Below the pieces are notes generated by a model. That model was not told the origin of the DNA. It saw only the letters and a list, made by a program, of their open reading frames with translations, and made no database searches. A stretch of DNA of 42,572 nt from Alphaproteobacteria bacterium (GTDB lineage Bacteria; Pseudomonadota; Alphaproteobacteria; Elsterales; Elsteraceae): NCBI GenBank assembly GCA_004292755.1, contig RDXE01000056.1, forward strand, positions 1-42,572. Direction: 5' to 3'. This document shows, piece by piece, positions 4,616-39,789 of this stretch. Each line of letters opens with the position of its first letter. Position 1 is the stretch's first letter. Position numbers and translations under genes: made by a program.

Positions 4616-6304
4616 CTACTCCAGAAACGGCAATTTCAACCCCTGCTCCCGTGCGCAGGTGACAGCGATGTCATATCCCGCGTCGGCGTGGCGCATCACG
4701 CCGGTTGCCGGGTCGTTCCACAGCACGCGTGCCACGCGGCGGGCGGCGTCTTCGGTGCCGTCGCACACCACAACCATGCCGGAGTGTTGGGAGTAGCCAA
4801 TGCCGACACCACCACCATGGTGCAAGGAGACCCAGGTGGCGCCAGAGGCGCAGTTCAGGAGCGCGTTCAACAGCGGCCAGTCGGCAACCGCGTCGCTGCC
4901 ATCCAGCATGGCTTCGGTTTCGCGGTTGGGGCTGGCGACACTGCCGCTGTCCAGATGATCGCGACCGATCACAATCGGCGCCTTTAGCTCGCCCCGGGCG
5001 ACCATCTCGTTGAACGCAAGGCCCAGCCGGTGGCGTTGGCCCAGGCCAACCCAGCAGATGCGCGCCGGCAGGCCTTGGAAGTGAATGCGCTCCCGCGCCA
5101 TGTCCAACCAGCGATGCAGGTGCGGATCATCGGGGATCAATTCCTTCACCTTGGCATCGGTGCGCCAGATATCCTCCGGATCGCCTGAGAGCGCACACCA
5201 GCGGAAGGGGCCGATGCCGCGGCAGAACAGCGGGCGAATATAGGCGGGCACGAAGCCTGGGAAAGCGAAGGCGTCGGCCACCCCCATCTCTTGCGCCATC
5301 GCGCGGATGTTGTTGCCATAGTCGAGGGTGGGGATGCCCATGGCGTGCAGGTCGAGCATGGCGCGCACCTGGCGGGCCATGCTGGCCTTGGCCGCCTGTT
5401 CGGTGCCAACGGGGTCGCTCTCGCGGCGGGTTGCATGCTCGTCCAAGGTCCACCCCGCGGGCAGATACCCGTTCAGCGGGTCATGGGCGGAGGTTTGGTC
5501 GGTCACCATGTCTGGTCGGGCGCGCTGGTCGCCGGCACGCACCCGGTGCGCAATCTCGGGGAACACCTCGGCCGCATTGCCCAGCAAGCCAATGGAGACC
5601 GGACTGCCACTGTCCCGCGCCTCGGCCAGCCACGCCAGCGCCTCATCCAGGCTGGCGGTTTGGCGGTCGAGATAGCCAGTGGCAAGGCGCTTTTCAATTC
5701 GGCTGGGCTGGCATTCCACGCCCAACAGCGAGGCTCCCGCCATGGTGGCGGCGAGCGGCTGCGCACCCCCCATGCCGCCGAGGCCACCGGTGAGAATCCA
5801 CCGCCCCGTCAAATCCCCGCCATAGTGCTGCCGACCAGCCTCGACAAAGGTCTCGTAGGTGCCCTGCACAATGCCCTGGGAGCCGATGTAAATCCACGAG
5901 CCCGCAGTCATTTGCCCGTACATCATCAGGCCCTTGCGGTCGAGGGCGTGGAAATGGTCCCAGGTGGCCCATTTGCCAACCAGATTGGAATTGGCGATCA
6001 ACACCCTGGGGGCATCGGCATGGGTGCGAAACACGCCCACCGGCTTGCCAGATTGCACCAGCAGGGTTTCATCGGCCTCCAGGCGCTCCAGCGCGTGGAC
6101 AATGCGGTCAAAGCTGTCCCAATCGCGCGCGGCACGGCCGATGCCGCCATACACCACCAACTCCTCCGGGCGCTCTGCCACCGCGGGGTCGAGGTTGTTC
6201 AGCAGCATGCGCAAGGCGGCTTCGGTCTGCCAGGACTTGGCGGTCAGAGCGGTGCCGTGCGGGGCGCGGAGGATGCGGGTGTTGTCCAAGTGCCGACGGG
6301 TCAT
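4616..6304 (-). CDS. hutU: urocanate hydratase
   Basis: A 562-residue urocanase, second enzyme of histidine degradation: urocanate plus water gives imidazolone propionate, using tightly bound NAD+. The whole length matches the family (usually about 555). Visible landmarks are [17 protein letters not shown] near the N-terminus, the NAD-binding [18 protein letters not shown], the [10 protein letters not shown] segment holding the conserved cysteine, and the near-invariant C-terminal runs [18 protein letters not shown] and [19 protein letters not shown] chose ATG 6304 because AAAGGA lies nine bases upstream; a TTG at 6334 would add ten residues. It follows hutF by 45 bases on the same strand, so the two probably form an operon. 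hutH, hutI and a formylglutamate hydrolase are not in the window. Confidence 0.97.
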
Positions 6305-6349
6305 CGCGAACAGTCCTTTGGGCAGAAAACGCAAGGGTTGAAGGGCGGG

Positions 6350-7732
6350 CTACCCTGTCACGTGGTCAAGCGCCCGGCGAAAGCCCGCGGCAATCGTCTC
6401 TTCATCCGCGTGGCGACCATCGCGGATCACCCACCGTCCCCCCACCATCACGTGGCGCACGGGGGTGGCGGAGCCAGAGAACACCCAGCTGTCAATCGCG
6501 AGGTTGCCGGGGCGATGGGTCAGCGCCGGGTGGTCTGGGTCCAGCACCACAAGGTCGGCCCGCAGGCCCGGCTCCAGTGCCCCAATTGGGCGCCCCAGCG
6601 CCTGCGCGCCCCCTGCCAGCGCCTGACGGAACAAGGCCGCCCCCGTGGAGGCGCCGGGCGTGGTTTCAACCAGATTGCGGCCCTGCTGTTCCAGGCGGCG
6701 GGTGTATTCCAGCCAGCGCAACTCCTCCACTGGGCTGGTGCCGACATTGCTGTCGCTGCCGATGCCAAACCGCCCGCCTGCTGCCAGATAAGGCAGCAGT
6801 GGAAACAAGCCATCGCCCAGGTTGGCCTCAGTGGTCGGGCACAAGCCTGCAACGGCGCCACTGGTGGCGAGGCGCTGAGTTTCGGCTGCCGTCATGTGGG
6901 TGGCGTGGATCAGGCACCAGCGCTCCGACAGGCCGATGTGATTCAACAGCCACTCGACAGGTCGTTCGCCAGACCAGGCGATGCAGTCCGCCACTTCCTT
7001 TGGCTGCTCGGCTGCGTGGATGTGCAGCGGCAGATTGCCCAGCTGGTGTGCCAGCGCCACCACCTCAGCCAGAGCCGCTGGAGGCACAGCCCGCAGACTG
7101 TGCGGCGCAAGGCCCAGGGCAATGTTCGGGTTCTGGTGATAGGTGGTGATCAACTCCTCCACCACGCGGGCGAAGGTGTCAGTCGACAAGATGAAGCGGC
7201 GCTGCCCCTCGGTTGGCGGAACGCCGCCAAACTGCGCGGTCTGATACAGCACCGGCAGCAGCGTCAGCGCGATGCCCGCTTGCTGCGCCCCGGCCACCAC
7301 ACGATGGGCCAACTCGGCTGGATCGGCATAGCAGTGACCGGACGGGTCACAATGCAGATAATGAAACTCCCCCAGGGTGGTATAGCCGTTGCGCAGCAAC
7401 TCCACCCCCAGTTGGGCTGTGATGGCCTGCACATCCTCAGGACGCAGGCGGGCGAGGAAGCGATACATCACCTCCCGCCAACTCCAGAAACTGTCGCCCT
7501 CGGGGCCGGCGCGTTCCGCTAGGCCAGCCATTGCGCGCTGGAAGGCGTGGCTGTGCAGGTTGGCCATGCCCGGCACAACCAATCCACCAGCTGGCGTGGC
7601 ATCGGGGTGAAGACCAGGGGTAATCGCACTGATGGTGCCCGTGGCATCAATTGCCACAGTGGCGGGACCAGCCATCGCCCCATCGCGCCACAGCGCTGGC
7701 GTCGACAGCAAATGCGATGCTGACACTGTCAT
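6350..7732 (-). CDS. hutF: formimidoylglutamate deiminase
   Basis: A 460-residue amidohydrolase-superfamily enzyme converting N-formimino-L-glutamate to N-formyl-L-glutamate and ammonia, the route of the five-step histidine pathway that avoids direct formimidoylglutamase. Metal-ligand and catalytic motifs are all visible: NLHSHAFQRAMAG (His60 and His62), HIHAAEQ, IHATHM and GIGSDSNVGTSPVEELRWLE. Length and architecture match HutF and not guanine deaminase or imidazolonepropionase. ATG 7732 is preceded by AAGGGTGG. It is the first gene of a hutF-hutU operon. A palindromic site 58 bases upstream of the start could be the operator. Products would feed a formylglutamate hydrolase (HutG type) encoded elsewhere. 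Confidence 0.95.
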   Translation of the reverse strand: MTVSASHLLSTPALWRDGAMAGPATVAIDATGTISAITPGLHPDATPAGGLVVPGMANLHSHAFQRAMAGLAERAGPEGDSFWSWREVMYRFLARLRPEDVQAITAQLGVELLRNGYTTLGEFHYLHCDPSGHCYADPAELAHRVVAGAQQAGIALTLLPVLYQTAQFGGVPPTEGQRRFILSTDTFARVVEELITTYHQNPNIALGLAPHSLRAVPPAALAEVVALAHQLGNLPLHIHAAEQPKEVADCIAWSGERPVEWLLNHIGLSERWCLIHATHMTAAETQRLATSGAVAGLCPTTEANLGDGLFPLLPYLAAGGRFGIGSDSNVGTSPVEELRWLEYTRRLEQQGRNLVETTPGASTGAALFRQALAGGAQALGRPIGALEPGLRADLVVLDPDHPALTHRPGNLAIDSWVFSGSATPVRHVMVGGRWVIRDGRHADEETIAAGFRRALDHVTG

Positions 7733-13796: not shown

Positions 13797-13894
13797 TTCC
13801 ACCCAGACATACGACTGATTCGTGACTGACTGCCGCACTGCGACCCAACGTCCCGTCTTGGCATGCCGGTTGCCTTAAGAAGGCGATGGGCATT

Positions 13895-13914
13895 CCTCCG
13901 CATTCCGGCGGAGG
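13895..13914 (+). promoter_or_regulatory. hairpin in the leader of the first binding-protein gene
   Basis: CCTCCGC pairs with GCGGAGG around the loop ATTCCG, ending 20 bases before the start codon of the binding-protein gene and just before its ribosome binding site. A smaller stem (GCCTT/AAGGC) lies at about 13872-13884. They might affect mRNA stability or translation; no riboswitch class is recognised. Confidence 0.3.
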
Positions 13915-13934
13915 CGGTTCAGCGGGAGGATTGG

Positions 13935-15617
13935 ATGATGGCGGGTTGGTCTGGTTGGAGAGTGGGTCCAGGACGCGGCAAGACGGCGTGGCTCGCCGGT
14001 GCAGCCTTGGCGGTGGCACTGGCGACACCGGTGCTCGCACAGGAAAAGGTGCTGCGCATCGCGATGACGGCGGCCGATATCCCGCGCACGCTGGGTCAGC
14101 CCGATCAAGGCTTTGAGGGCAACCGCTTCACCGGCATCCCGATGTATGACGCACTGACCCATTGGGACCTGTCGAAGGCCGATGCGCCCTCGGTGGTGAT
14201 CCCAGGGCTTGCGACGGAATGGTCGGTCGACGCGACGGATCGCACCAAGTGGGTGTTCAAGCTGCGTCCCGGCGTCACCTTCCATGACGGTTCGCCCTTC
14301 AACGCCGCAGCAGTGGTGTGGAACGTTCAGAAGGTGCTGGATCAGCAGGCGCCGCATTTTGATGCGAGCCAGGTGGGTGTCACTGCCTCGCGCATGCCGA
14401 CGCTGCGCTCCGCACGCGCCATCGACAGCATGACCGTTGAGTTGACGACGTCGGAGCCGGATGCGTTCTTGCCGATCAACCTGACCAATCTGTTCATGGC
14501 TTCGCCCACCCATTGGCAAGCCTTGTTCCAGGCGGTTCCGGCTGATGTGACCGATCCCCGCCAGCGCGCCACCCGTGCCTGGGCGGCGTTTGCGGCCAAT
14601 CCATCCGGTACGGGACCGTTCCGCGGCGTGCGGCTGGTGCCGCGCGAGCGGTTTGAGATGGTCAAGAACGACCGGTACTGGGACCCCGCCCGCACGCCGA
14701 AGCTGGACCGTGTGGTGCTGTTGCCTCTGCCTGAAGCCAATGCCCGCACGGCCGCCTTGTTGGGCAATCAAGTGGACTGGATTGAATCGCCTGCCCCCGA
14801 TGCACTGGGTGCCATGCGGCAGCGCGGCTTTGTGCTCTATCAGAATCCGCAACCGCACGTTTGGCCGTGGCAGTTCTCGTTCCTGCCGGGCTCGCCGTTC
14901 CTCGATCGGCGGGTGCGCCATGCCGCTAACCTCTGCATCAACCGCGACGAGTTGCGCGAACTGCTGGGCGGTCTGATGGGGGTGCCGAAGGGTACGGTGC
15001 CGCCGGGCCATCCCTGGTGGGGCAATCCTGAATTCGACATCAAGTACGATCTGGCCGCGGCCCGCCGCTTGATGGGCGAGGCAGGCTTTGCTGCCAACCG
15101 GCGCTTGACGGTGAAGGTGCTGACCTCTGCCTCCGGCTCGGGTCAGATGCAGCCTGTCGCGATGAACGAGTGGCTGCAGCAGGCCCTGCGCGAATGCTTC
15201 TTCGACGTGCAGTTGGAAGTGATCGAGTGGAACGCGCTGTTCACCAACTGGCGCGAAGGGGCAAGCCACCCGAACGCTCGCGGTGCGCACGCAACCAACG
15301 TGACCTACGCGGCCATGGACCCCTTCTTTGCGATGGTCCGCTTCGTCACCCGCGGCGCCAATCCGCCGAACTCCAACAACTGGGGCTTCTTCAACTCCGA
15401 TGAGATGGAAACCCTGGTGCAGCGCGCCCGCACCAGCTTTGACGGTCAGGCCCGCGATGCCGCTCTGGCGGCCCTGCACAAGCGCATCGTGGAGGAAGCT
15501 CCCTTCCTGTGGGTGGCCCACGATGTTGGTCCGCGGGTGATGAGCCCGCGCGTCACCGGCGTGGTGCAGCCGCGCTCCTGGTTCATCGATCTGGCGACGA
15601 TGGACCTGCGCAATTGA
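13935..15617 (+). CDS. ABC transporter substrate-binding protein, family 5 (Sec-type signal)
   Basis: A 560-residue periplasmic binding protein of the DppA/OppA family (SBP_bac_5). Residues 1-35 form a Sec signal: basic start (RGK), hydrophobic core (TAWLAGAALAVALATP) and cleavage after VLA-35. Family marks are GLATEWSVD, KLRPGVTFHDGSPF, GTGPFR, and DRRVRHAANLCINRDEL. GGGAGGA stands before two adjacent ATGs (13935, 13938); either could be used. It is clearly a paralogue of the protein at 16470-18104: both begin the mature part with VLRIAMTA-DIP and share W-GNP and EWN motifs. It probably serves the same permease/ATPase set downstream, although an inverted racemase-family gene separates them. 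The ligand is unknown; peptides or peptide-like amino compounds are the family norm. Confidence 0.88.
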   Translation: MMAGWSGWRVGPGRGKTAWLAGAALAVALATPVLAQEKVLRIAMTAADIPRTLGQPDQGFEGNRFTGIPMYDALTHWDLSKADAPSVVIPGLATEWSVDATDRTKWVFKLRPGVTFHDGSPFNAAAVVWNVQKVLDQQAPHFDASQVGVTASRMPTLRSARAIDSMTVELTTSEPDAFLPINLTNLFMASPTHWQALFQAVPADVTDPRQRATRAWAAFAANPSGTGPFRGVRLVPRERFEMVKNDRYWDPARTPKLDRVVLLPLPEANARTAALLGNQVDWIESPAPDALGAMRQRGFVLYQNPQPHVWPWQFSFLPGSPFLDRRVRHAANLCINRDELRELLGGLMGVPKGTVPPGHPWWGNPEFDIKYDLAAARRLMGEAGFAANRRLTVKVLTSASGSGQMQPVAMNEWLQQALRECFFDVQLEVIEWNALFTNWREGASHPNARGAHATNVTYAAMDPFFAMVRFVTRGANPPNSNNWGFFNSDEMETLVQRARTSFDGQARDAALAALHKRIVEEAPFLWVAHDVGPRVMSPRVTGVVQPRSWFIDLATMDLRN

Positions 15618-15639: not shown

Positions 15640-16389
15640 TCAGCCGTGTTCGACAGCCGCCGCCAATGCCGCCGAGACCCCATGGCACGCAATCTTCGGC
15701 AGCAAGGCAGCATCATGACCGATGGTATTGGCTGGGGTGCGGGTGCGGGCGTGGTCGACGGCCTGTTCCGTCGCGGCAATGACGGCCGCGACACCGTCGA
15801 TCAACGGCACCGGCACCAGGGGTTGCAGCCTGTGGGTCAAGCCAGCAAGGCCAGCCCCACCCAAGATCACGCACTCGGCATGGTCAACACGCGCGGCCTC
15901 TGTGCAGGCAGCCGCCAGCAGAGCCAGCGCGCCATCGGGGTCGCGCGCAATGTCTGCCCCACTGGGCGCAACAGTGCGGATGCCAGCCAGCTGATCGGCC
16001 TTGCCACTCAACACCACCATCTCCCGCAGCATCGGCTCCCACAGGCGCCCGCCGGTAACAATGCCAAAGCGCCGGGTGCCAGCCGCGGCCAGCGTCGCCT
16101 CCACCATGCCGATCACGGGCACGGGCGACAGTTCTTTCAAGGCGGCCAACCCTGGGTCGCCAAAACACGCCAGCACCACGCCATCGACCCCCGCGCGATG
16201 CTCCGCCCAGGCGTCCAGCGCTGCATGGCCCGCGATGGCATAGGTGGCGCGTGTCGCGATGTAGCGCCCGCCGAACCGTCCCGTGACAGCGCGCAGAGTG
16301 GTGGTCGGGCGCCGAACCGCGTTGGCGGCGCGCAGCACCAGATCGGTGATTTCCACACTCGTGTTCGGATTGATCAACAGCACCTGCAT
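15640..16389 (-). CDS. Asp/Glu/hydantoin racemase family protein
   Basis: A 249-residue member of the Asp/Glu/hydantoin racemase superfamily, most like HyuE-type hydantoin racemases: MQVLLINPNTSVEITD at the N-terminus, VVLACFGDPGL in the first half and ECVILGGAGLAGL in the second. Racemases of this fold use two cysteines. The first is present (Cys75), but at the second, where LGCAG is expected, this protein has LGGAG (Gly178); a cysteine sits five residues earlier at 173. It may therefore not racemise by the normal two-base mechanism. It lies inverted between two plus-strand binding-protein genes. GGGGGTGAG precedes ATG 16389. Context suggests work on an amino acid, hydantoin or amide delivered by the neighbouring transporter; this is inference. 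Confidence 0.8.
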   Translation of the reverse strand: MQVLLINPNTSVEITDLVLRAANAVRRPTTTLRAVTGRFGGRYIATRATYAIAGHAALDAWAEHRAGVDGVVLACFGDPGLAALKELSPVPVIGMVEATLAAAGTRRFGIVTGGRLWEPMLREMVVLSGKADQLAGIRTVAPSGADIARDPDGALALLAAACTEAARVDHAECVILGGAGLAGLTHRLQPLVPVPLIDGVAAVIAATEQAVDHARTRTPANTIGHDAALLPKIACHGVSAALAAAVEHG

Positions 16390-16469: not shown

Positions 16470-18104
16470 ATGACCCAACTTGATCGCCGTTCCTTTCTGG
16501 CCAGCAGCGCCGGTGCGGCTGCGGGTGTCGCCGCTGGCGCCGGCCTTGGTCTGTCTCCAGCGGCAGCCCAGGCTGGCGGGGTGTTGCGCATCGCAATGAC
16601 GGCCTCGGACATTCCATTGACCACGGGGCAGACCGATCAGGGCGGCGAAGGCCAGCGGTTCATGGGCTATACCGTCTATGATTCCCTGATCAATTGGGAT
16701 TTAAGCCGGTCCGACCGCTCCTCCAGCCTGACCCCGGGCCTTGCCACCAAGTGGGAGGTTGATCCCGCCAACACCAACCGCTGGATCTTCACCATCCGCG
16801 AGGGGGTGCAGTTCCATGACGGCAGCACCTTCACGGCAGAAGCGGCGGTGTGGAACTTCGACAAGCTGTTGAAGGAAGACAGCCCGCAGTTCGACCGCCG
16901 CCAGTCGGCTCAGGGCCGCTCGCGCATTCCGTCGATTGCGGGCTACCGCGCGCTGTCGCCAGGGGTGTTGGAGATCACCACCCGCGCGCCAGACGCCACG
17001 CTGCCCTATCAAGTCGCATGGATCATGTTTTCCTCGCCCGCTCAGTGGGAGGCGATGGGCCGCAATTGGGATGCCGTCGCCCTGCGCCCGTCCGGCACCG
17101 GGCCCTGGCGTCTGGACCGGTTTGTGCCGCGCGAGCGGGCGGAGCTGGTGCCGTTTCCTGGCTACTGGGACAAGGCGCGGGTGCCGAAAACCAGCCGGAT
17201 GGTGCTGCTGCCGATCCCGGAAGCCAATGCGCGCGTCGCAGCACTGCGCGGTGGTCAAGTGGATTGGATCGAGGCCCCGGCTTCGGACGCCATTGCCTCG
17301 TTGCGTCAGGCTGGCTTCCAGATCACGGCCAACGCCTATCCGCACAATTGGACCTGGCATTTCGCCCGCAATCCGGGCTCGCCCTGGAATGATGTGCGGG
17401 TGCGGCGGGCAGCCAATCTGGCGGTGGATCGCCAGGGCATGAAACAACTGCTGGCTGACATGATGATCCCTGCCGAGGGCTTCCTCACCCCCGGTCATGC
17501 TTGGTTCGGCAATCCAACTTTCAAGCTGCGCACCGATGTGGATGCCGCCAAGCGCCTGATGGCTGAGGCTGGCTTCACCCCGCAGCGCCCGTTGCGCACC
17601 AAGGTGCTGATTGCGCCGTCGGGCTCCGGCCAGATGCAGCCGCTACCGATGAACGAGCTGATCCAGCAGAATCTCGCAGATGTTGGCTTCGCCATCGAGT
17701 TCGAGGTGGTGGAGTGGAACACGCTGATCAACATCTGGCGCGCTGGGGCGGCACATCCGTCCTCCCGCGGGGCGTCGGCGATGAATTATTCCTACTTCAT
17801 CCAGGACCCGTTCACGGCATTCATCCGCCATTTGGCGACCGAACTGCAGCCACCAGCAGGGACCAACTGGGGCCTGTACTCCGACCCCGACATGGATCGT
17901 CTGTTCCAGGATCTGCGCACGGCCTTCGACCCCGCAGCACTGGATCGCGCAATGCAGCGCATTCACGAGAAGTATGTCGATGAAGCCCTGTTCTTGATGG
18001 TGACCCACGATGTTGGTGCGCGCGCCATGCATCGGCGTGTGCAGGGCTTTGTCCAGGCCCAGAACTGGTTCCAGGACTTCTCGCCAATCACAATTGCAGG
18101 CTAA
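16470..18104 (+). CDS. ABC transporter substrate-binding protein, family 5 (Tat-type signal)
   Basis: A 544-residue DppA/OppA-family periplasmic binding protein. Its leader reads DRRSFLASSAGAAAG, a twin-arginine motif (Arg6-Arg7, then xFL) followed by a weakly hydrophobic Ala/Gly core and an AAAQA cleavage zone near residue 35. It should thus be exported folded by Tat, unlike its paralogue upstream, which has a Sec leader. Family motifs include GLATKWEVD, TIREGVQFHDGSTF, SGTGPWRLDRF and DVRVRRAANLAVDRQ. AAGGAGAG lies before ATG 16470. The permease gene begins 63 bases after its stop and the five genes run in one direction, so this is the binding protein most closely tied to the transporter. 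Confidence 0.9.
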   Translation: MTQLDRRSFLASSAGAAAGVAAGAGLGLSPAAAQAGGVLRIAMTASDIPLTTGQTDQGGEGQRFMGYTVYDSLINWDLSRSDRSSSLTPGLATKWEVDPANTNRWIFTIREGVQFHDGSTFTAEAAVWNFDKLLKEDSPQFDRRQSAQGRSRIPSIAGYRALSPGVLEITTRAPDATLPYQVAWIMFSSPAQWEAMGRNWDAVALRPSGTGPWRLDRFVPRERAELVPFPGYWDKARVPKTSRMVLLPIPEANARVAALRGGQVDWIEAPASDAIASLRQAGFQITANAYPHNWTWHFARNPGSPWNDVRVRRAANLAVDRQGMKQLLADMMIPAEGFLTPGHAWFGNPTFKLRTDVDAAKRLMAEAGFTPQRPLRTKVLIAPSGSGQMQPLPMNELIQQNLADVGFAIEFEVVEWNTLINIWRAGAAHPSSRGASAMNYSYFIQDPFTAFIRHLATELQPPAGTNWGLYSDPDMDRLFQDLRTAFDPAALDRAMQRIHEKYVDEALFLMVTHDVGARAMHRRVQGFVQAQNWFQDFSPITIAG

Positions 18105-18167: not shown

Positions 18168-19121
18168 ATGCTTGCCTATATTGGCCGTCGGGTTGTTTAC
18201 ACCGTGCCGATCATGCTGGGCGTCAGCTTGGTGTGCTTTGCCCTGGTGCATATCTCGCCCGGTGATCCGCTGGTTTCCGTGCTGCCTGCCGATGCGTCAG
18301 AGCAACTGCGCCTGACCATGATGCGGCTCTATGGCTTTGACCGCTCGTATCCGGAGCAGTTTGGCCTGTGGCTGTGGCGGGCGGTGCAGGGCGACCTTGG
18401 CACCTCCATTGCGACGGGACGCGCCGTTGCGACGGAGGTGCTGCGCGCGGCTGGCAATACGCTGCGTCTGGCCGCCCTCGCCACAGTGATCGGCTTTGTG
18501 TTCGGCTGTTTGTTCGGCTTTGTGGCGGGCTATTTCCGCGACAGTTGGGTCGACAAGCTGGCCTCGCTGTTGTCGGTGATTGGCGTGTCGGTGCCGCACT
18601 ATTGGCTCGGCATGGTGCTGGTGATCGTGTTCTCCTCCCAACTCGGCTGGTTGCCCGCGACTGGGGCTGGCCCCGGTGGCTCTTCCAGCTGGGTGTGGGA
18701 CTGGGAGCATGTGAGCCACATGGTGCTGCCCGCGATCACCATGTCGGTGATCCCGATGGGCATCATCGCCCGCACGGTCCGCGCCCTGGTGGCGGAAATC
18801 CTGGCTCAGGAGTTCGTCATCGGCCTAAAGGCGCGTGGCTTGAACGAGGTCGGCGTGTTTGCCCATGTGGTGAAGAACGCGGCGCCGACAGCCTTGGCGG
18901 TGATGGGCCTGCAACTCGGCTATCTGCTGGGCGGATCGATCTTGATTGAGACCGTGTTCTCCTGGCCGGGCACTGGGTTCTTGCTGAACGCGGCGATCTT
19001 TCAGCGCGACTTGCCGCTGTTACAGGGCACCATCCTGGTGCTGGCGATGTTCTTCGTGCTGTTGAATCTGGCGGTGGACGTGGTGCAGACCATGCTCGAC
19101 CCCCGCATCGAGAGGGGGTGA
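18168..19121 (+). CDS. ABC transporter permease, DppB/OppB type
   Basis: A 317-residue inner-membrane permease of a peptide-type ABC importer. The N-terminus MLAYIGRRVVYTVPIMLGVS is the standard first helix of DppB proteins, followed by the periplasmic loop HISPGDP and GDLGTSI. The coupling (EAA) loop reads AEILAQEFVIGLKARGLNE, which contacts the ATPases. The end LAVDVVQTMLDPRIERG is also family-standard. About six helices are predicted. It is followed after three bases by the DppC-type partner, with which it forms the heterodimeric channel. Start ATG 18168 has GTGAGGATC upstream. The 63-base gap from the binding-protein gene contains CACCGG/CCGGTG inverted matches that might stabilise the upstream mRNA. 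Confidence 0.92.
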   Translation: MLAYIGRRVVYTVPIMLGVSLVCFALVHISPGDPLVSVLPADASEQLRLTMMRLYGFDRSYPEQFGLWLWRAVQGDLGTSIATGRAVATEVLRAAGNTLRLAALATVIGFVFGCLFGFVAGYFRDSWVDKLASLLSVIGVSVPHYWLGMVLVIVFSSQLGWLPATGAGPGGSSSWVWDWEHVSHMVLPAITMSVIPMGIIARTVRALVAEILAQEFVIGLKARGLNEVGVFAHVVKNAAPTALAVMGLQLGYLLGGSILIETVFSWPGTGFLLNAAIFQRDLPLLQGTILVLAMFFVLLNLAVDVVQTMLDPRIERG

Positions 19122-19124
19122 GCC

Positions 19125-20018
19125 ATGGCGCTTAGCCTTGCCCCAAAAGCCGCCGTGCCGCTGGTACCATTCGAACGCTCGCCTGGATATTGGGCGACGG
19201 TGTGGCGCAAGTTCCGTCGCGATCCCGTTGCCGTCGGGGCGGCGATCGTGATCCTGGCCTTGATTGTGATGGCGATTGCGGCCCCCTGGATCACGCCGCA
19301 GGATCCGTTTCGATCCTCCGTGCTGCGGCGGCTGCGCCCGATTGGCACCGATGGCTTCCCACTCGGCACTGACGAGCTCGGTCGCGACATGCTGTCCCGC
19401 TTGATGCTGGGGGCGCGGCTTTCGTTGTTCATGGGGGTCACGCCGGTGCTGATGGCCTTCGCTATCGGCTCCACCATCGGGATCATCGCGGGCTATGTCG
19501 GGGGCTGGGTCAACACAGCGATCATGCGCACGATTGATGTGTTTTACGCCTTCCCCTCGGTGCTGTTGACCATTGCCTTGTCGGGTGCCTTGGGGGCCGG
19601 GATCGGCAATGCGCTGTTGTCATTGACGGTGGTGTTCATTCCACCGATTGCCCGCGTGGCCGAGGCAGTGACCACCCAGGTGCGCAGCCGCGACTATGTG
19701 GAAGCCGCGCGCGCCTCTGGGGCCAGTGCACTCACCATCATTCGCGTTCATGTGCTGGGCAATGCGCTGGGGCCGATCTTTGTCTATGCCACCAGCTTGA
19801 TCTCGGTGGCGATGATCCTGGCCTCTGGCCTGTCGTTTCTCGGCTTGGGGGTTCGCCCACCCGACCCGGAATGGGGCTTGATGCTGAACACGCTGCGCAC
19901 CGCGATCTACACCCAGCCCTGGGTCGCGGCTTTGCCGGGGGCGATGATCTTCATCACCTCGATCTCCTTCAACCTGGTGTCGGACGGTCTGCGCTCCGCC
20001 ATGGATGTGAAGAGCTAA
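19125..20018 (+). CDS. ABC transporter permease, DppC/OppC type
   Basis: A 297-residue inner-membrane permease, partner of the DppB-type protein encoded three bases upstream. It has the N-terminal cytoplasmic stretch and first helix (AIVILALIVMAIAAPWI), the DppC marker GTDELGRDMLSRLMLGAR, the EAA loop VRSRDYVEAARASGAS, and the ending SFLGLGVRPPDPEWGLML then FNLVSDGLRSAMD. About six helices are expected. Length is normal for the family. It is in one operon with both binding-protein and ATPase genes; the next start is four bases after its stop, so translation is probably coupled. Confidence 0.92.
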   Translation: MALSLAPKAAVPLVPFERSPGYWATVWRKFRRDPVAVGAAIVILALIVMAIAAPWITPQDPFRSSVLRRLRPIGTDGFPLGTDELGRDMLSRLMLGARLSLFMGVTPVLMAFAIGSTIGIIAGYVGGWVNTAIMRTIDVFYAFPSVLLTIALSGALGAGIGNALLSLTVVFIPPIARVAEAVTTQVRSRDYVEAARASGASALTIIRVHVLGNALGPIFVYATSLISVAMILASGLSFLGLGVRPPDPEWGLMLNTLRTAIYTQPWVAALPGAMIFITSISFNLVSDGLRSAMDVKS

Positions 20019-20022
20019 GCCG

Positions 20023-21063
20023 ATGAGCGAGCAGCAATCCTTGCGCGATGACCGCGGTGGCCCAGCCCAGCCCCTGCTGACCGTCAGCGGTTTGGTCAAA
20101 CATTTCCCCCTCAAGAAGCGCTTGGGCCGACCGGCGGCCGTCGTGCGTGCCGTCGATGGCATCGACTTTGAGGTTTTGAAGGGCGAAACCCTGGGAGTGG
20201 TGGGCGAGAGTGGCTGCGGCAAATCCACCACCGCGCGCCTGCTGATGCATCTGATTGCCCCCGATCAGGGCGACTTTACCTTTGATGGCGAGACTGTCGG
20301 CGGGCCGGAGTTGCCGCTGAAATCCTATCGCCGTCAGGTGCAGATGGTGTTTCAGGACAGTTACTCCTCCCTCAACCCCCGCATGACCATTGAGGATTCG
20401 ATTGCCTTCGGGCCTAAGGTCCATGGGTTGAATGGGCGGGAGGCGATCACCCGGGCGCGCGATCTGTTGGCGCGTGTTGGGTTGGAGCCGCGCCGCTTCG
20501 CTGGGCGCTATCCTCATGAGTTGTCCGGCGGTCAGCGCCAGCGGGTTAACATCGCCCGCGCCTTGGCGTTGGAGCCGCGGATGATCATTCTGGATGAAGC
20601 TGTCTCCGCACTGGACAAATCTGTCGAAGCCCAGGTGTTGAACCTGCTGCTGGATTTGAAGGAGGCGTTTGGCCTGACTTACATCTTCATCAGTCACGAC
20701 TTGAACGTGGTCCGCTTCATGTCCGACCGGGTGATGGTGATGTATTTGGGTCGAGTGGCGGAGATTGGTCCATCGGAGGCGATCTTTGACGCCCCAGCCC
20801 ACCCTTACAGTGCGGCCCTGTTGGCGTCCATGCCATCGATGGACCCGGATGCGCGGACGGAGGAAGCCCCCTTGGCGGGCGATCCGCCCAATCCCATCGA
20901 CCCGCCCCCCGGCTGTCGCTTTCACACCCGCTGTGCTCTGGCGGAGGCGTCCTGCCGCAGTGTGGTGCCAAGCTTGACGGCCATTGGCCCCCACCACCGT
21001 GCGGCCTGCCTGATGGCGATGCCGGGCTCGGGCCATAGTCGCGCAACAGAGGAGGCGGCGTGA
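20023..21063 (+). CDS. oligopeptide-type ABC transporter ATPase, DppF-like
   Basis: A 346-residue cytoplasmic ATPase of the peptide-importer class. Walker A is GESGCGKST (near residue 65), the signature [16 protein letters not shown], Walker B MIILDEAVSALD, and the H-loop ISHDL. The C-terminal oligopeptide-transporter extension with its cysteine-containing PPGCRFHTRC and ASC motif is present. This is the DppF member of the pair; Walker B has DEAVSALD where most relatives have DEPVSALD, a mild variant. It comes before the DppD-like gene, and its TGA shares a base with the next ATG (TGATG). Confidence 0.93.
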   Translation: MSEQQSLRDDRGGPAQPLLTVSGLVKHFPLKKRLGRPAAVVRAVDGIDFEVLKGETLGVVGESGCGKSTTARLLMHLIAPDQGDFTFDGETVGGPELPLKSYRRQVQMVFQDSYSSLNPRMTIEDSIAFGPKVHGLNGREAITRARDLLARVGLEPRRFAGRYPHELSGGQRQRVNIARALALEPRMIILDEAVSALDKSVEAQVLNLLLDLKEAFGLTYIFISHDLNVVRFMSDRVMVMYLGRVAEIGPSEAIFDAPAHPYSAALLASMPSMDPDARTEEAPLAGDPPNPIDPPPGCRFHTRCALAEASCRSVVPSLTAIGPHHRAACLMAMPGSGHSRATEEAA

Positions 21064-22052
21064 TGACTGAGCCCTTGGTTGAGCTGCGCGACTTGACGGT
21101 CACCTTTACCGGTGGGCCAAAGCCGGTGGCGGCCGTCAATGGCGTCGACCTCACCCTCGCTCCCGGAGAGACGGTGGCGTTGATTGGTGAGTCGGGGTCT
21201 GGGAAGTCCGTCACTCTGCGGCAAATCCTGCGCCTCAATCCCGAGCGGCGCAGCCGCGTGAGCGGGCAGGTGCGGGTGGCGGGCCTGGACGTGCTGCGTC
21301 TGTCCGGCACAGAGTTGGCGGCCTATCGCGGCGCCGTTGCCTCGATGATTTTTCAAGAACCTCTGCTGGCGCTCGACCCGGTCTACACACTGGGCGACCA
21401 GATCGTTGAGGCGATCTGTCGGCACGAGGCCGTCAGCCGCGAGGATGCGCGGCGCCGCGCGCTTGATTTGTTCGAGCGGGTGCGCATCCCCTCGGCCGCG
21501 CGGCGGCTGGAGGCCTATCCCCATGAAATGTCCGGTGGGATGCGGCAGCGCGCAATGATCGCCCTGGCACTGGCGTGCCGACCAAAGCTGTTGCTCGCGG
21601 ATGAGCCAACCACGGCGCTGGACGCCACGGTGCAAATTCAGGTGTTGCTGCTGCTGCGGGATTTGCAGCGGGAGTTCGGGCTCTCCATCCTGTTCGTCAC
21701 CCACGACATTGGCGCCGCGGTCGAAGTCGCCGACCGCATGGCGGTGATGTATGCCGGGCGGATTGTGGAAGCGGCTGACGCGCGCACCATTGTCCGCGCG
21801 CCGCGTCATCCCTACACGATTGGCTTGTTGAAAAGCCGCGCCCATGGCGCGCTGCAAAAAGGTCAGCGGCTGGAGACGATTCCAGGCTCCCCACCCGACC
21901 TTGCCAATCTACCGCCGGGTTGCGCCTTCGCCGACCGCTGCTTTCTCGCGGCCGATGCCTGCCGCACCACGCCCCCTGCGGCAGAAGGGCTGGCGGCTGG
22001 GCATCAGGTTCGCTGCTTCCGCAGCGCTGACACCGCAGCCGCCTTGGCGTGA
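21063..22052 (+). CDS. oligopeptide-type ABC transporter ATPase, DppD-like
   Basis: A 329-residue ATPase, second motor subunit of the transporter. Walker A is GESGSGKS (near residue 40), the signature MSGGMRQRAMIALALA, the MSGGMRQR form typical of DppD/OppD, Walker [13 protein letters not shown], and the H-loop VTHDIGA. The C-terminal peptide-transporter domain with PPGCAFADRC and DAC is intact. ATG 21063 overlaps the stop of the preceding ATPase and is seven bases from GGAGG; a GTG three bases earlier is also possible. It is the last gene of the operon and converges on the acr3 gene 12 bases away. Confidence 0.93.
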   Translation: MTEPLVELRDLTVTFTGGPKPVAAVNGVDLTLAPGETVALIGESGSGKSVTLRQILRLNPERRSRVSGQVRVAGLDVLRLSGTELAAYRGAVASMIFQEPLLALDPVYTLGDQIVEAICRHEAVSREDARRRALDLFERVRIPSAARRLEAYPHEMSGGMRQRAMIALALACRPKLLLADEPTTALDATVQIQVLLLLRDLQREFGLSILFVTHDIGAAVEVADRMAVMYAGRIVEAADARTIVRAPRHPYTIGLLKSRAHGALQKGQRLETIPGSPPDLANLPPGCAFADRCFLAADACRTTPPAAEGLAAGHQVRCFRSADTAAALA

Positions 22053-34165: not shown

Positions 34166-36220
34166 ATGTCGGCCATTGCAATGTCACCGACGCCCGTTGC
34201 GGCGGCGGAGCCCCGCCGCGCGTTGCTCGCCGTCGAGGATCTGTCGGTCCAGTTCGTCACGTCCCGCGGTGTTGTCCGCGCCGTGGAGCGATTGTCCTAT
34301 ACCGTCGCCCCCGGCGAGATTCTGGCGGTGGTGGGCGAGAGTGGCTGCGGCAAGTCCGTCTCCTCGCTGGCGATCATGCGCTTGCTGCCGAAGCAGACCG
34401 CGCGCATCCCCTCGGGTCGAATCCTGTTCGACGGCCGCGATCTGCTGGCGCTGTCGGATGAGGAGATGCGCAGCCTGCGCGGCCGCGACATCGCGATGAT
34501 CTTTCAGGAACCCATGACCAGCCTGAACCCGGTGTTGAGCATCGGCGAGCAAATCATGGAGCCCTTGATCATCCACCTGGCGATGACCCCGGCTGCGGCC
34601 CGCAGCCGTGCGGTTGAGTTGCTGGGTCTCGTCGGCATCACCGACCCGGAGCGGCGCCTGGACCAATATCCGCATCAGTTTTCTGGTGGGATGCGCCAGC
34701 GGGTGATGATTGCGATTGGCCTTGCCTGCAATCCCAAGCTGATCATCGCTGATGAGCCGACCACCGCCCTCGACGTCACCATCCAGGCGCAGATTCTGGA
34801 GTTGATGAAAGACCTCTGCCGGCGGCTGGACATTGCGTTGATTGTCATCACCCACAATCTTGGCATTGTCGCGCGCTACGCGGACCGGGTTCAGGTGATG
34901 TACGCAGGCGAGGCTGTGGAGCAGGGTGTTTCGGAACAGGTGTTCCAAACTCCGCGCCACCCTTACACCGAAGGATTATTGCGTTCGATTCCCCGGTTGG
35001 ATCGCCCGCGCGATGGGCGGCTCGCCACCATCGAAGGGTTGCCGCCCAATCTCTTGGCTCCGCCAGACGGGTGCCGCTTTGCCCCGCGCTGTCCCTATGC
35101 CGAAGCGGCGTGCCAATCCCCCCAAACTCTGGCTGAGGTGCGCCCCGGTCATCTGACCCGCTGTGGCCGCGCAGCTGAGATTGCGCGCCGTGGCATCAAT
35201 GGGTGGAGCCTCGCGGGGGAGGCTGCGGCCGAGGTTGCCTCCACTGCCCCGCTGGTGCTTGAGGTCGAGGGTCTGACCAAGCATTTCGAGGTTGGCGGCG
35301 GCCTGTTGCGCGGGGCGACAGCCGTCGTCAAGGCCGTCGATGGCGTCAGCTTCAGTTTGCGCGAAGGCGAAACCCTTGGCTTGGTCGGCGAATCCGGCTG
35401 CGGCAAGTCCACCGTCGGGCGCTTGCTGTTGAAGTTGGAAACGCCAACGGCTGGTCGCATCCGGTTTGAGGGGCGCGACCTCGCTGGGCTGGGGGATCGG
35501 GAGTTGCGCGACGTGCGTCGCCGCATCCAGGTGATTTTCCAAGACCCGTTCGCTTCCCTGAATCCGCGCATGACGGTTGGGCAGATCATCACAGAACCGC
35601 TGATGGTCTATCGGCTGGTGGCGTCAAAACGCGCCGCTGCCGACCGCGTTGCGGAGTTGCTGGGCCAAGTCGGCCTCTATGGCTATATGGCCGAGCGCTA
35701 TCCCCATGAATTGTCGGGTGGTCAGCGCCAGCGGGTTGGCATCGCCCGCGCCCTGGCGATGGAGCCGCGATTCATCGTCTGCGACGAGCCGGTTTCGGCG
35801 CTAGACGTGTCGATTCAAGGGCAAATCATCAACCTGCTGGAAGAGCTGAAGCTGCGTCTGGGCTTGACCTACTTGTTCATTGCCCATGATTTGGCGGTGG
35901 TGCGCCATATCTCCGACCGGGTGGCGGTGATGTATCTCGGGCGGATGATGGAGGTGGCAGCGCGCGATGCGCTGTATGCCGAGCCGCTGCACCCCTACAC
36001 CCAAGCGCTGCTGGATGCCGCCCCGGTTCCTGACCCAGTCGCGGAGAAGGCGCGCGCACCGCGCACCTTGGGCGGCGAGCTGCCAAGCCCACTCAATCCA
36101 CCCTCTGGCTGTGTGTTTCACACCCGCTGCGTTGCTGCCACCGAGGCGTGCCGCCGCGTGGTGCCCAGCTTGGAGGAGAAGCGACCCGGCCACTGGGTCG
36201 CCTGTATCAACGTTGCCTAG
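34166..36220 (+). CDS. fused double ATPase of a peptide-type ABC transporter
   Basis: A 684-residue protein with two complete DppD/DppF-type ATPases in one chain, like GsiA or YejF. The first half has Walker A GESGCGKS (57-64), signature [16 protein letters not shown] and Walker [13 protein letters not shown]; the second has [25 protein letters not shown] and [11 protein letters not shown]. Each half ends with the oligopeptide-transporter cysteine extension ([32 protein letters not shown]). It replaces the two separate ATPases seen in the other transporter of this window. ATG 34166 follows GGGAGGAGG. It leads an operon with a binding protein and two permeases. Confidence 0.93.
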
Positions 36221-36311
36221 AGCGAGGGATAGAACACGATCGGCGCTTAGGGCAACGCAATTGACGTTAACGTCGCGGAAGACGACGCAACTGAACGGGG
36301 GGAGGAGACCC

Positions 36312-37904
36312 ATGAAACACAGCATGCTTGCCGGGGCGGTTGCCGCGGTCAGTCTCGCCTTAGCGGTTCCCGCCATAGCTCAGGCGCCCAGTGCCACGCC
36401 CAAGCGGGGCGGTACATTGACCTTCGCGATCTCGGCCGAGGCGCCGACCTATGATTGCCACGCGGGCAACACCTATGCGGTGGTTCACGCTGTGGCGCCG
36501 TTCTACTCCACGCTGCTGAAGTTTGATCTGTCGAAGTATCCAGCCGTGGAAGGCGATGTCGCGGAAAGCTGGGAGATCAGCCCGGATCAGAAGACCTTTA
36601 CCTTCCGTCTGCGCGACAATGTGGTGTTCCACGATGGTACGCGCCTGACCTCGCGCGATGTGCGTGCCACCTATGAGCGGCTGCGCAACCCGCCGCCGGG
36701 CGTGGTTTCGGTCCGGCGCGCAAGCTATGAGGATATCTCCGAAATCCTTACCCCCGATGAGCGCACGGTGGTGTTCAAGCTGTCGGAGGCCAATCCTTCC
36801 GTGTTCCAGAACTTCGCCTCGCCCTGGGATTGTATCTACTCAGCCGCTAAGCTGGCAGAGGACCCGCTGTTTCCCCAGAAAACCATTATGGGCACGGGGC
36901 CGTTCAAGTTTGTGGAGCATGTGCGCGGCAGCCACTTCGCCGGGGTTCGCCACGAGCAGTATCACGTGCGCGGCCAGCCCTATTTGGACGGCTTTCGTGG
37001 TGTGATTTTCAGCCAGGGGTCCGCCATGCTGAACGCCCTTCAGGGGGGTCAGGTCCTGGCGGAGTTTCGCTCCCTCTCGCCAGCCGAGCGGGACCGGATT
37101 GTCGGCACGCTGGGCCAGCGCATCCGCATTGAGGAAGAAAGCTGGGTGCTGAAGCTGACGGTCGCCTTCAATGCAGAAAAGGCGCCGTTCAACGACCCGC
37201 GGGTGCGCCGGGCGCTCTCCATGGCGATTGACCGCTGGGGTGGCAGCCAGGGCCTGTCCCGCATTGCCACCTTGCGCGCCGTCGGCGGGGTGATGCGTCC
37301 AGGCTCCCCCTTTGCCACGCCGGAAGCGGAGCTGGCCAAGCTGCCGGGCTTTGGGCGTGACATTCGCGCGGCCCGCGAAGAGGCCCGCCGCCTGCTGCGT
37401 GAGGCCGGTGTGCCAAACCTGTCCTTCGTGTTGACCAATCGGACCCTGGCCCAGCCTTACACGCCGGGTGGGGTGTTCCTGGTCGATCAATGGCGCCAGA
37501 TCGGGGTGACAGTGGAGCACCGGCAGCTGGAGACCGCTGCCTACAATGCTGCCCAGGCCAATGGCACCTTTGATGTGATCCTGGACTTCTCCAACGAGTT
37601 CATGGATGAGCCAAACAACGGCCTGACCAAGTACATCTCCAGCGACCGCAGCCCGAACAACCCGGCTCGTGCTGTCGACCGCGATTTGGATCGCCTCTAT
37701 GACCAGCAACGCCGGGAAACCGATCCGGCCAAGCGCAATGCGATCATTCAGGAGTTTGAGCGTCTGGCGATGGAGCGTGCCTACACTGTGCCACTGCTGT
37801 GGTGGCATCGCATCGTCGCCACCCACCAACACCTGCGCGGTTGGCAGATGAGCCCGTCACACCTTCTTGGCCAGTCGCTGGCCGGGGTGTGGCTGGATCA
37901 GTAA
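36312..37904 (+). CDS. ABC transporter substrate-binding protein, family 5
   Basis: A 530-residue periplasmic binding protein of the DppA/OppA family. The Sec signal MKHSMLAGAVAAVSLALAVP ends at AIAQA, about residue 24. Family motifs are GDVAESWEISPDQ, FRLRDNVVFHDGTRL, MGTGPFKFVE, and DPRVRRALSMAIDR. GGGGGAGGAG precedes ATG 36312. It sits between the fused ATPase gene (91 bases upstream) and the permease genes (26 bases downstream). It is only a distant relative of the two binding proteins at 13935 and 16470. Ligand unknown; the GsiA-like ATPase context would fit glutathione, di- or oligopeptides, but this is inference. Confidence 0.9.
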   Translation: MKHSMLAGAVAAVSLALAVPAIAQAPSATPKRGGTLTFAISAEAPTYDCHAGNTYAVVHAVAPFYSTLLKFDLSKYPAVEGDVAESWEISPDQKTFTFRLRDNVVFHDGTRLTSRDVRATYERLRNPPPGVVSVRRASYEDISEILTPDERTVVFKLSEANPSVFQNFASPWDCIYSAAKLAEDPLFPQKTIMGTGPFKFVEHVRGSHFAGVRHEQYHVRGQPYLDGFRGVIFSQGSAMLNALQGGQVLAEFRSLSPAERDRIVGTLGQRIRIEEESWVLKLTVAFNAEKAPFNDPRVRRALSMAIDRWGGSQGLSRIATLRAVGGVMRPGSPFATPEAELAKLPGFGRDIRAAREEARRLLREAGVPNLSFVLTNRTLAQPYTPGGVFLVDQWRQIGVTVEHRQLETAAYNAAQANGTFDVILDFSNEFMDEPNNGLTKYISSDRSPNNPARAVDRDLDRLYDQQRRETDPAKRNAIIQEFERLAMERAYTVPLLWWHRIVATHQHLRGWQMSPSHLLGQSLAGVWLDQ

Positions 37905-37930
37905 CGGACATCGCGGGGAAGGGGCGGGAC

Positions 37931-38884
37931 ATGCTGCGCTATCTCGGCCGGCGGCTGGTGTTGATGATCCCCACTCTGTTGGGGGTGGCGATCATCACCT
38001 TCTTCATGCTGCGGGTGGTTCCGGGCGACATTGTGGAGGTGAAGCTGCGCGGCGATGGCGGCAGCGTCACTGCTGACGTGATCGCCGCCGAGCGGGCGCG
38101 GCTGGGTCTCGACCAACCCCTGCTGGTGCAGTTTGCCGATTGGATGGTCGGGTTGGTGACCTTCGACTTCGGTATCTCGATGTGGACCGGTCGCCCAGTG
38201 GTGGAGGAAATCGGGTTGCGCCTGGAGCTGTCGTTCCAGGTCGCTGTAATGGCAACCGTTGTAGCAGTGCTGATCGCCATTCCACTGGGCACCCTGTCTG
38301 CGTTGTTCCGCAATACTTGGATTGACTATGTTGTGCGGATCTTCACCATTGCTGGGCTGGCGGTGCCCAGCTTTTGGTTGGGCATGTTGGTGATTTTGGC
38401 GCTGCTGGCTTTGTTCAACTGGCTGCCGCCAATCACCTATACGCCCTTGTACGTCGATCCGATTGCCAACCTGTCGCAGTTGATCTGGCCGGCACTTGCG
38501 GTCGGCTATCGTTATGCGGCGGTGGTGGCGCGCATGGTACGCTCCTCCCTGCTCGAAGTGATGCGGGAGGATTACATCCGCACGGCGCGCGCCAAGGGCG
38601 TGTTTGAGCGGCTGGTGGTGATGCGCCACGCCATGGGCAACGCTCTTCTGCCCGCAATCACCGTGATTGGGTTGGAGTTTGCTTTCCTTATCGGTGGACT
38701 GGTGGTGACAGAGCAAGTATTTAACTTGAACGGTATTGGGCGCCTATTTGTCCAGGCGGTCAGCCGTAATGATTTTATGCTGATCCAAACCTTGGTCATG
38801 CTGCTGGCGGTGGTGTTCATCACGGTGAACTTGATTGTGGACTTGCTGTACGCCGCCCTTGACCCCCGCATTCGGTATAAGTGA
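37931..38884 (+). CDS. ABC transporter permease, DppB/GsiC type
   Basis: A 317-residue inner-membrane permease. It starts MLRYLGRRLVLMIPTLLGVA, then VVPGDIVEVKL, FDFGISMWTGRPV, and the coupling loop LEVMREDYIRTARAKGVFE; it ends VNLIVDLLYAALDPRIRYK. All are family-standard. ATG 37931 follows GGGGCGGGAC, a weak ribosome binding site; the longer open frame from 37799 overlaps the binding-protein gene and is not credible. The DppC-type partner begins nine bases after its stop. Confidence 0.92.
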   Translation: MLRYLGRRLVLMIPTLLGVAIITFFMLRVVPGDIVEVKLRGDGGSVTADVIAAERARLGLDQPLLVQFADWMVGLVTFDFGISMWTGRPVVEEIGLRLELSFQVAVMATVVAVLIAIPLGTLSALFRNTWIDYVVRIFTIAGLAVPSFWLGMLVILALLALFNWLPPITYTPLYVDPIANLSQLIWPALAVGYRYAAVVARMVRSSLLEVMREDYIRTARAKGVFERLVVMRHAMGNALLPAITVIGLEFAFLIGGLVVTEQVFNLNGIGRLFVQAVSRNDFMLIQTLVMLLAVVFITVNLIVDLLYAALDPRIRYK

Positions 38885-38892
38885 GGCCGCTG

Positions 38893-39789
38893 ATGGCTGT
38901 TGCATCTGCTCCCGCACTCCCCAGCCCTGTTGGTCGCCGCCGCGCGGCTTGGCTGGATTTCATCATCGCCCAGCCTCTGGGGGCAGTGGCGTTGTTCGTG
39001 GTGTTGGTGATGGCGCTGGCGGCGATCTTTGCCGACGTCGTTGCCCCCTATGATCCCCTGGAGATTGACTGGGGGGCGATGTTGTCTGCGCCATCGATGG
39101 AGCATCCCTTTGGCACCGACAGTTTTGGCCGTGATATCTTCACCCGTGTGATCTATGGCGCCCGTACAGCCTTGGCGATTGGGCTGTTGTCCTCGCTGAT
39201 TGGGTGCACCCTGGGTGCTGCCATCGGCATTGCCTCAGCCTATTTCGGCGGCCGGGTGGACATGGTGGTGCAGCGGTTGGTGGATATGTTCCTGGCCTTC
39301 CCGATCATCGTACTGGCTCTGGTGGTGGTGGCGATCCTCGGGCGGCTGCCGGTGCTGGGCGTCGACATGAACCTTGTGCTGGCGATTGCAGTGCCGATTG
39401 TGCCGAAGGTGGCGCGGGTCATCCGGTCGTCGGCGCTGACCATCGTCACCATGCCTTACATTGATGCGGCGCGCACGGCGGGTTACAGCCACCTGCGCAT
39501 CATCCTGCGCCACATCGCGCCCAACGTTGCCGCACCCTACTTGATCTTGCTCACTGCTTTCATTGCCCAGGCGATTCTGCTGGAGGCGTCGCTCTCCTTC
39601 CTGGGCCTTGGCGTGACCGAGCCGACACCTGCCTGGGGCCTGATGCTGTCCGGCAATGCGTCCGACTTCTATCGCGAGGCACCGTGGATGATCCTGTTCC
39701 CCGGCTTGGCGATCAGCCTGGCCGTATTCGCCTTCAACCTGTTCGGCGATGCTTTGCGCGACTGGTTGGACCCGAAGTTCAAAACCTAA
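38893..39789 (+). CDS. ABC transporter permease, DppC/GsiD type
   Basis: A 298-residue inner-membrane permease partnering the DppB-type protein. It has the first helix AVALFVVLVMALAAIFADVV, the family marker GTDSFGRDIFTRVIYGART, the coupling loop TMPYIDAARTAGYSH, and the ending LSFLGLGVTEPTPAWGLML. ATG 38893 is preferred, with GAGG six bases before it; a GTG at 38881 overlaps the previous stop. The next gene starts three bases after its stop, so a fifth protein appears to belong to this operon. Confidence 0.92.
   Translation: MAVASAPALPSPVGRRRAAWLDFIIAQPLGAVALFVVLVMALAAIFADVVAPYDPLEIDWGAMLSAPSMEHPFGTDSFGRDIFTRVIYGARTALAIGLLSSLIGCTLGAAIGIASAYFGGRVDMVVQRLVDMFLAFPIIVLALVVVAILGRLPVLGVDMNLVLAIAVPIVPKVARVIRSSALTIVTMPYIDAARTAGYSHLRIILRHIAPNVAAPYLILLTAFIAQAILLEASLSFLGLGVTEPTPAWGLMLSGNASDFYREAPWMILFPGLAISLAVFAFNLFGDALRDWLDPKFKT

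Follow-up and report, generated by a model that had tools for sequence, protein, structure and literature searches.

A one-cysteine branch near the hydantoin/allantoin racemases, often encoded close to importer genes, in Alpha- and Betaproteobacteria

The window (the whole stretch of 42,572 nucleotides analysed here, contig RDXE01000056.1 of an Alphaproteobacteria bacterium of the Elsteraceae) contains at positions 15640..16389, on the reverse strand, an intact gene of the Asp/Glu/hydantoin racemase family, with ATG at 16389 and stop at 15640, that encodes a protein of 249 amino acids, P0002. The protein belongs to the PF01177 superfamily (151.2 bits against a cut-off of 31) and matches zero NCBIfam models at E<=0.001. 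On either side, on the forward strand, lies a gene for a family-5 solute-binding protein. The first (16470..18104; PF00496, 226.2 bits) is divergent from the P0002 gene across a gap of 80 bp and leads a Dpp/Opp-type ABC importer (18168..22052, forward strand) with permeases at 18168-19121 and 19125-20018 and ATPases at 20023-21063 and 21060-22052, for which the NCBIfam matches stay below the equivalog cut-offs; the second (13863..15617; PF00496, 219.6 bits) is convergent with the P0002 gene across 22 bp. In a genome of the same genus (locus L043), a binding protein is likewise found on each side of the homologue. No purine genes were detected among the ten window proteins scanned. Elsewhere, the window carries a second Dpp/Opp-type importer set (34166-39789, forward strand), the permeases of which cluster with those at 18168-20018, and, on the reverse strand (4616-7732), a urocanase gene (4616-6334) beside an amidohydrolase gene (6350-7732), probably a histidine-degradation pair.

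Alignment to the solved allantoin racemases places Cys75 of P0002 (motif LACFGDPG, codon TGT, 16165..16167, reverse strand as are all codons below) at the first catalytic cysteine position of the two-cysteine hydantoin/allantoin racemases and Gly178 (codon GGG, 15856..15858) at the second, where the LGCAG motif reads LGGAG; codons and alignment alike agree with the original prediction on these points. Because GGG is two base changes away from either cysteine codon, a single miscalled base cannot explain Gly178. Sequencing error and gene decay are ruled out by this codon, by the 30 other proteins with the Cys75/Gly178 pair and by a dN far below dS: against the 72%-identical relative in L043, dN is 0.22 and dS 1.70 (a rough NG86 estimate), which suggests purifying selection on the coding sequence. 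Three residues past the first site, Asp78 (16156..16158; Asp in 29 of the 31 Cys75/Gly178 rows of the alignment described below) aligns with Glu78 of the P. fluorescens allantoin racemase, which reportedly has a catalytic role. Another ionisable residue, His55 (16225..16227), to which no role is assigned, is present in 30 of these 31 rows and in 0 of the 15 rows that retain the second cysteine. In the window protein's own sequence, the loop 177-183 holds no ionisable residue and thus no substitute base.

The remaining cysteines of P0002 are at positions 162 and 235, and at 173 (codon TGC, 15871..15873). The last was proposed originally as a displaced cysteine, to be placed by family alignment and structure prediction. 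It is real, and an AlphaFold2 model of P0002 (4 sequences, mean pLDDT 82.2, pTM 0.81) does not put it at the second-cysteine position: it is the first residue of a predicted strand, 173-177, and Gly178 falls just past the end of this strand. Catalytic loops of the racemase fold sit at strand ends, where Gly178 falls. Column 173 over the 31 Cys75/Gly178 rows is Val in 12, Ala in 10, Thr in 4, Ser in 2, and Cys, Ile and Leu in 1 each. Being unique among the 31 rows and located at the start of the strand, far from 178, Cys173 would not substitute for the missing residue.

The family was analysed in an alignment of 56 family rows and two references, the allantoin racemases of K. pneumoniae (KpAllR) and P. 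fluorescens (PfAllR). The residues at 75/178 over these 58 rows are C/G in 31, A/G in 8, V/G in 3, I/G in 1, C/C in 13 (including KpAllR and the odd row L094) and G/C in 2 (including PfAllR); most relatives were collected because they resemble the window protein, and therefore neither the 31 C/G rows nor the 43 Gly178 rows represent frequencies. For tree building by maximum likelihood, L094 was dropped, leaving 57 rows, and columns 75 and 178 were masked. A single branch of the resulting unrooted tree (bootstrap 100, SH-aLRT 99) separates all 43 Gly178 rows from the others; position 178 changes once on the tree and position 75 four times, and Gly178 would represent a single loss if the two-cysteine rows serve as the outgroup. 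The clade of the window protein comprises 29 rows (100/99), and Cys75 and Gly178 are found in 29/29; the absence of the second catalytic cysteine, predicted from P0002 by itself, is a stable arrangement across this clade. A sister subclade of 12 rows (96/93) lacks both cysteines, with Ala (8), Val (3) or Ile (1) at position 75. The split that sets the two-cysteine rows apart from all others, PfAllR among the latter, has weak support (84/51), and the near-pairs L013/L014, L039/L042, L005/L006 and L004/L016 are not independent.

The segment GIVTGGRLWEPML of P0002 (residues 109-121, 16027..16065) corresponds to a changed half-site, VTGGxxWxxML, in which T112, G114, W117 and L121 are invariant in 31/31 C/G rows and in 29/29 rows of the tree clade, and Gly113 is kept in 28/31 C/G rows; the 31-row group was defined by Cys75/Gly178, which makes the conservation of these two residues within it circular, and the 29-row clade is the fair test. 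In the second-cysteine rows (n=15), columns 113, 114, 117 and 121 are mainly Ile or Thr, Leu, Ser or Thr, and His, respectively. The lost cysteine is thus accompanied by a changed half-site; the two make up one phylogenetic split, which gives no independent evidence of their coupling.

With the window protein as query, matches were obtained in 18/385 genomes of the class (E<=1e-35) and in 10/398 genomes of the phylum (E<=1e-40), and the named members of the branch are Alpha- and Betaproteobacteria; a homologue in Methylobacterium radiotolerans has the accession WP_012329582.1. In viral contigs, a pattern matched in 48 stretches, none of which was confirmed. The window genome itself encodes two further PF01177 matches at E<=0.001, on contigs C65 (two cysteines) and C48 (Val75/Gly178). 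The latter protein (L003, C48:18696-19304) and that of L011 combine Val75 with an LCGAA motif, in which the residue just ahead of the usual second position, 177, is a cysteine. On the plasmids of L063-L067, each Ala75/Gly178 sister protein has nearby both another member of the family and a gene of the dihydropyrimidinase cluster; this additional family member reads NGTS at the first site (SGTA in L067) and CTN at the second, and those scanned, in L063 and L065, match the Pfam arylmalonate-decarboxylase model PF17645. Among the papers listed by the nearest literature searches (20 of 36 in one of them), none named a one-cysteine branch, a weak absence given that subscription papers were mostly outside the search. 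Judging from the alignment and the tree, the Gly178 trait is more than a peculiarity of a single gene: it marks a branch that is well supported and apparently uncharacterised.

Comparison of the model with solved structures (Foldseek and VIA-align) assigns P0002 to the two-domain racemase fold, the top match being PfAllR (5lg5; Z 30.8, rmsd 2.6 over 222 residues), followed by KpAllR (Z 29.6), the P. horikoshii hydantoin racemase (24.4) and OpaE (23.0); maleate isomerase (19.1) and the Bordetella (aryl)malonate decarboxylase 3dg9 (18.9) score lower. A profile search of PDB sequences likewise left the allantoin racemases as the nearest entries, with KpAllR (3qvj) as the best match (5.8e-23). KpAllR has the pair Cys79/Cys184, whereas P0002 has Gly178 at the second position. 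PfAllR (5lfd, 5lg5; 28% identity to P0002) shares the fold, also lacks one cysteine and has the acidic Glu where P0002 has Asp78, but in the reverse arrangement, with Gly at the first site (AGYGEHG) and Cys at the second. The PfAllR structure is deposited as an allantoin racemase, and the enzyme, without its first cysteine, reportedly works as a racemase.

Published work points in both directions as to whether two cysteines are needed. In the hydantoin/allantoin-type Asp/Glu racemases NozR and OpaE, unlike P0002, both are present and required: as described in PMC10156859 and PMC12661438, mutation of either cysteine of NozR abolishes detectable activity, and OpaE retains 4.8% as C90S and 0.3% or less as C199S. 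In the EcL-DER aspartate/glutamate racemase, by contrast, the pair is unbalanced, Thr83/Cys197, with Thr in place of the first cysteine (P0002 has Gly in place of the second), and the reaction is quasi-unidirectional (PMC12661438). The initial assertion of a two-cysteine requirement for all racemases of this fold is accordingly not supported in that form, in view of PfAllR, with Gly at its first site, and of EcL-DER, with Thr. It had also been proposed that P0002 is a one-base enzyme or inactive as a racemase; the cysteine is indeed missing, and a one-base enzyme is plausible, but inactivity does not follow from the loss of that cysteine, given the Gly of PfAllR and the Thr83/Cys197 pair of EcL-DER. 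The missing cysteine alone does not exclude racemisation, and the reaction of the branch may differ from that of the textbook racemases.

Gene neighborhoods were compared between 28 loci, taking in as much as 10 kb on either side, and 20 control regions from 13 of the same genomes, with no plasmid among the controls. The 15 context queries came from case loci (the window, L006, L039, L041, L055 and L057), and the loose count takes in self-hits; for the strict count, self-hits were removed and an identity of at least 35% was demanded. By the loose count, any of three importer types occurs in 20/28 loci versus 2/20 controls: a family-5 binding protein in 10/28 versus 2/20, a second ABC type in 7/28 versus 0/20 (its binding protein is SBP_bac_8, and its permease is nearest to PotB but below the cut-off) and NCS1 in 4/28 versus 0/20. 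The same count gives 6/28 versus 0/20 for PuuE-like proteins and 7/28 versus 1/20 for amidases. By the strict count, importers remain in 14/28 loci versus 0/20 controls (family-5 in 6, the second ABC type in 5, NCS1 in 3), PuuE in 3/28, the amidase in 1/28 and any catabolic query in 5/28, all with 0 in the controls. L048, L050, L051, L058 and L059 match none of the 15 context queries, and the scanned neighbors in L046, L048, L050, L058 and L060 look unrelated.

A strong purine context is found in 3/28 loci, two of them from one genus and thus two lineages in all. On the Methylobacterium plasmids L039 and L042, the homologue lies with a PuuE-type allantoinase, an NCS1 permease, an MFS protein, two uraH genes, uraD, an FAD-dependent oxidoreductase and xanthine-dehydrogenase-family subunits; PuuE of L039 scores 516 bits (cut-off 424.6), and that of L042 was called by 65% identity. 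In L057 (genome G510), PuuE (519 bits, over the cut-off), an acetamidase-type gene and NCS1 accompany the homologue, and on the same contig UraD and a second PuuE lie 28 kb to one side and another UraD 24 kb to the other. In G510 and G288, which both encode UraD and PuuE, a glutamate racemase is the one protein besides the homologue to match PF01177 at E<=1e-15. The Polaromonas plasmid L041 carries a dihydropyrimidinase, a ureidoglycolate lyase and an importer. PuuE over the cut-off is present in 21/21 genomes with the gene versus 15/22 others (P 0.009), the 22 comparison genomes being hand-picked from earlier lists and unmatched for size or kinship; in this same comparison UraD is not enriched (17/21 versus 15/22, P 0.49).

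The genome of the window encodes purine functions on another contig, C66, with PuuE (547 bits), a hydroxyisourate hydrolase (132.7, cut-off 87.45), molybdenum-dehydrogenase subunits and an M20 protein that is over the hydantoinase/carbamoylase cut-off (390.5 versus 204) and under that for allantoate amidohydrolase (425.6 versus 452). Between PuuE and the M20 amidohydrolase in this locus (L068, C66:6000-25000) lies a gene for a pentapeptide-repeat protein. UraD was not found in this genome at E<=0.001; if the gene is really missing, spontaneous chemistry would yield racemic allantoin, and the cell could benefit from a stereoisomerase.

Taken together, these observations suggest, with a probability that we put a little short of even, that P0002, from a one-cysteine branch in the group of hydantoin and allantoin racemases, is a working enzyme whose substrate is an imported cyclic ureide resembling allantoin or hydantoin. 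The substrate would be small, and Cys75, with Asp78 beside it, would transfer the acidic proton at ring carbon C5 on one face; as the opposite face would lack a thiol, either water or a non-cysteine group would complete the stereoisomerisation, or the reaction would be strongly one-sided. There is precedent for one-way reactions by unbalanced catalytic pairs (PMC12661438), for exchange of a hydantoin racemase with solvent via an enolate (PMC8142540) and for turnover by the G74C/C188S variant of arylmalonate decarboxylase (AMDase), 20,000-fold slower until reshaped (PMC12576825). On the Methylobacterium plasmids and in G510, the homologue would fill the allantoin-racemase place of the urate-to-allantoate pathway; in the window organism, the Dpp-type importer encoded next to the gene would supply the substrate, which may be a different one. 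Against this explanation stand the need of NozR and OpaE for both cysteines, the persistence of the sister subclade without Cys75, the small number of loci with a strong purine context, the five loci that match no context query, the lack of UraD enrichment and the lack of a purine gene among the scanned window proteins. Plain allantoin as the substrate is disfavored by the pocket: according to PMC12661438, the ureido tail of allantoin is bound by the Thr118/Thr119 pair of KpAllR, and of the KpAllR residues Asn12, Thr118 and Thr119, P0002 keeps Asn9 and T112 but has Gly113 for Thr119, so the pair is half kept. It is a more doubtful extension, to which we give perhaps one chance in a few, that the entire branch relies on a single cysteine placed on one face, as a natural mirror of AMDase and the engineered G74C/C188G form, and in purine-degrading hosts provides a third route for stereoisomerising allantoin or N-alkyl-allantoins, with dedicated importers.

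Among the rival explanations, an unlikely one makes Cys75 a nucleophile in a covalent-thiol isomerase or hydrolase acting on a ring or an unsaturated acid. Maleate isomerase, for which such chemistry is indicated by the title of 2xed naming succinylcysteine, shares the fold at Z of about 19, and an amidase gene directly follows the homologue in L006 and lies near it in L056. Maleate isomerase uses a second cysteine besides the nucleophile, and PDB titles name its mutants C194S and C200A; in P0002 that second cysteine is Gly178, and the closest solved relatives are racemases. Rather improbable, too, is a binding or regulatory protein that serves the importer without catalysis. Such a role would fit the maintenance of the sister subclade without both cysteines, but C75, T112 and W117 in 29/29 clade rows are as expected of an active site, and catabolic genes flank several branch members.

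A one-face decarboxylase or lyase, the natural counterpart of engineered AMDases with the sole cysteine on the first face, is more improbable still. P0002 shares with AMDase the fold (AMDase chains align with the model at Z of about 17-19) and a single cysteine, and Cys75/Gly178 is the layout of the variants G74C/C188G, C188A and C188S, whose product is the (S)-enantiomer (PMC12576825); the G74C/C188 variants carry the cysteine on the Cys75 side. The likeness to natural AMDase that had been invoked is nevertheless mirror-imaged, since that enzyme has Gly74 and keeps the second cysteine, Cys188, as the only proton donor, and the other AMDase features are lacking in P0002. By the criteria of PMC4996985, the dioxyanion-hole and neighboring residues T75/S76 and C188/G189 correspond to F76/G77 and G178/A179, the motifs LMGTSLSF and ILLSCGGL are replaced by LACFGDPG and ILGGAGLAG, and the AMDase neighbors mandelate racemase and TTT are not among the ten window proteins scanned. 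PF17645, which is present in the searched Pfam library, does not match P0002 at E<=0.001. Membership in the arylmalonate decarboxylases or the maleate isomerases was rejected on these grounds. That P0002 is a normal two-cysteine racemase whose second cysteine has moved to 173 has next to no probability: Cys173 exists, but is five residues off at the strand start, in a column that is Val or Ala in 22/31 rows and Thr in the closest relative, L008, and it was ruled out as the catalytic residue.

Members of the branch are annotated as 'aspartate/glutamate racemase family protein', although the whole branch lacks one catalytic residue, and it provides a natural case on which to ask if acid-base groups are required on both faces in this fold. 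The branch is also a candidate, as a lead and not a result, for a missing step of caffeine degradation: in a review of C-8 oxidation, a trimethylallantoin racemase is proposed, with no homologue in the CBB1 cluster (PMC4408171), and on the coffee-root Methylobacterium plasmid the homologue sits inside a urate-type cluster. This cluster (L042, Methylobacterium sp. NMS14P) includes a three-subunit molybdenum dehydrogenase and an FAD-dependent monooxygenase, and it might serve methylated urates or caffeine.
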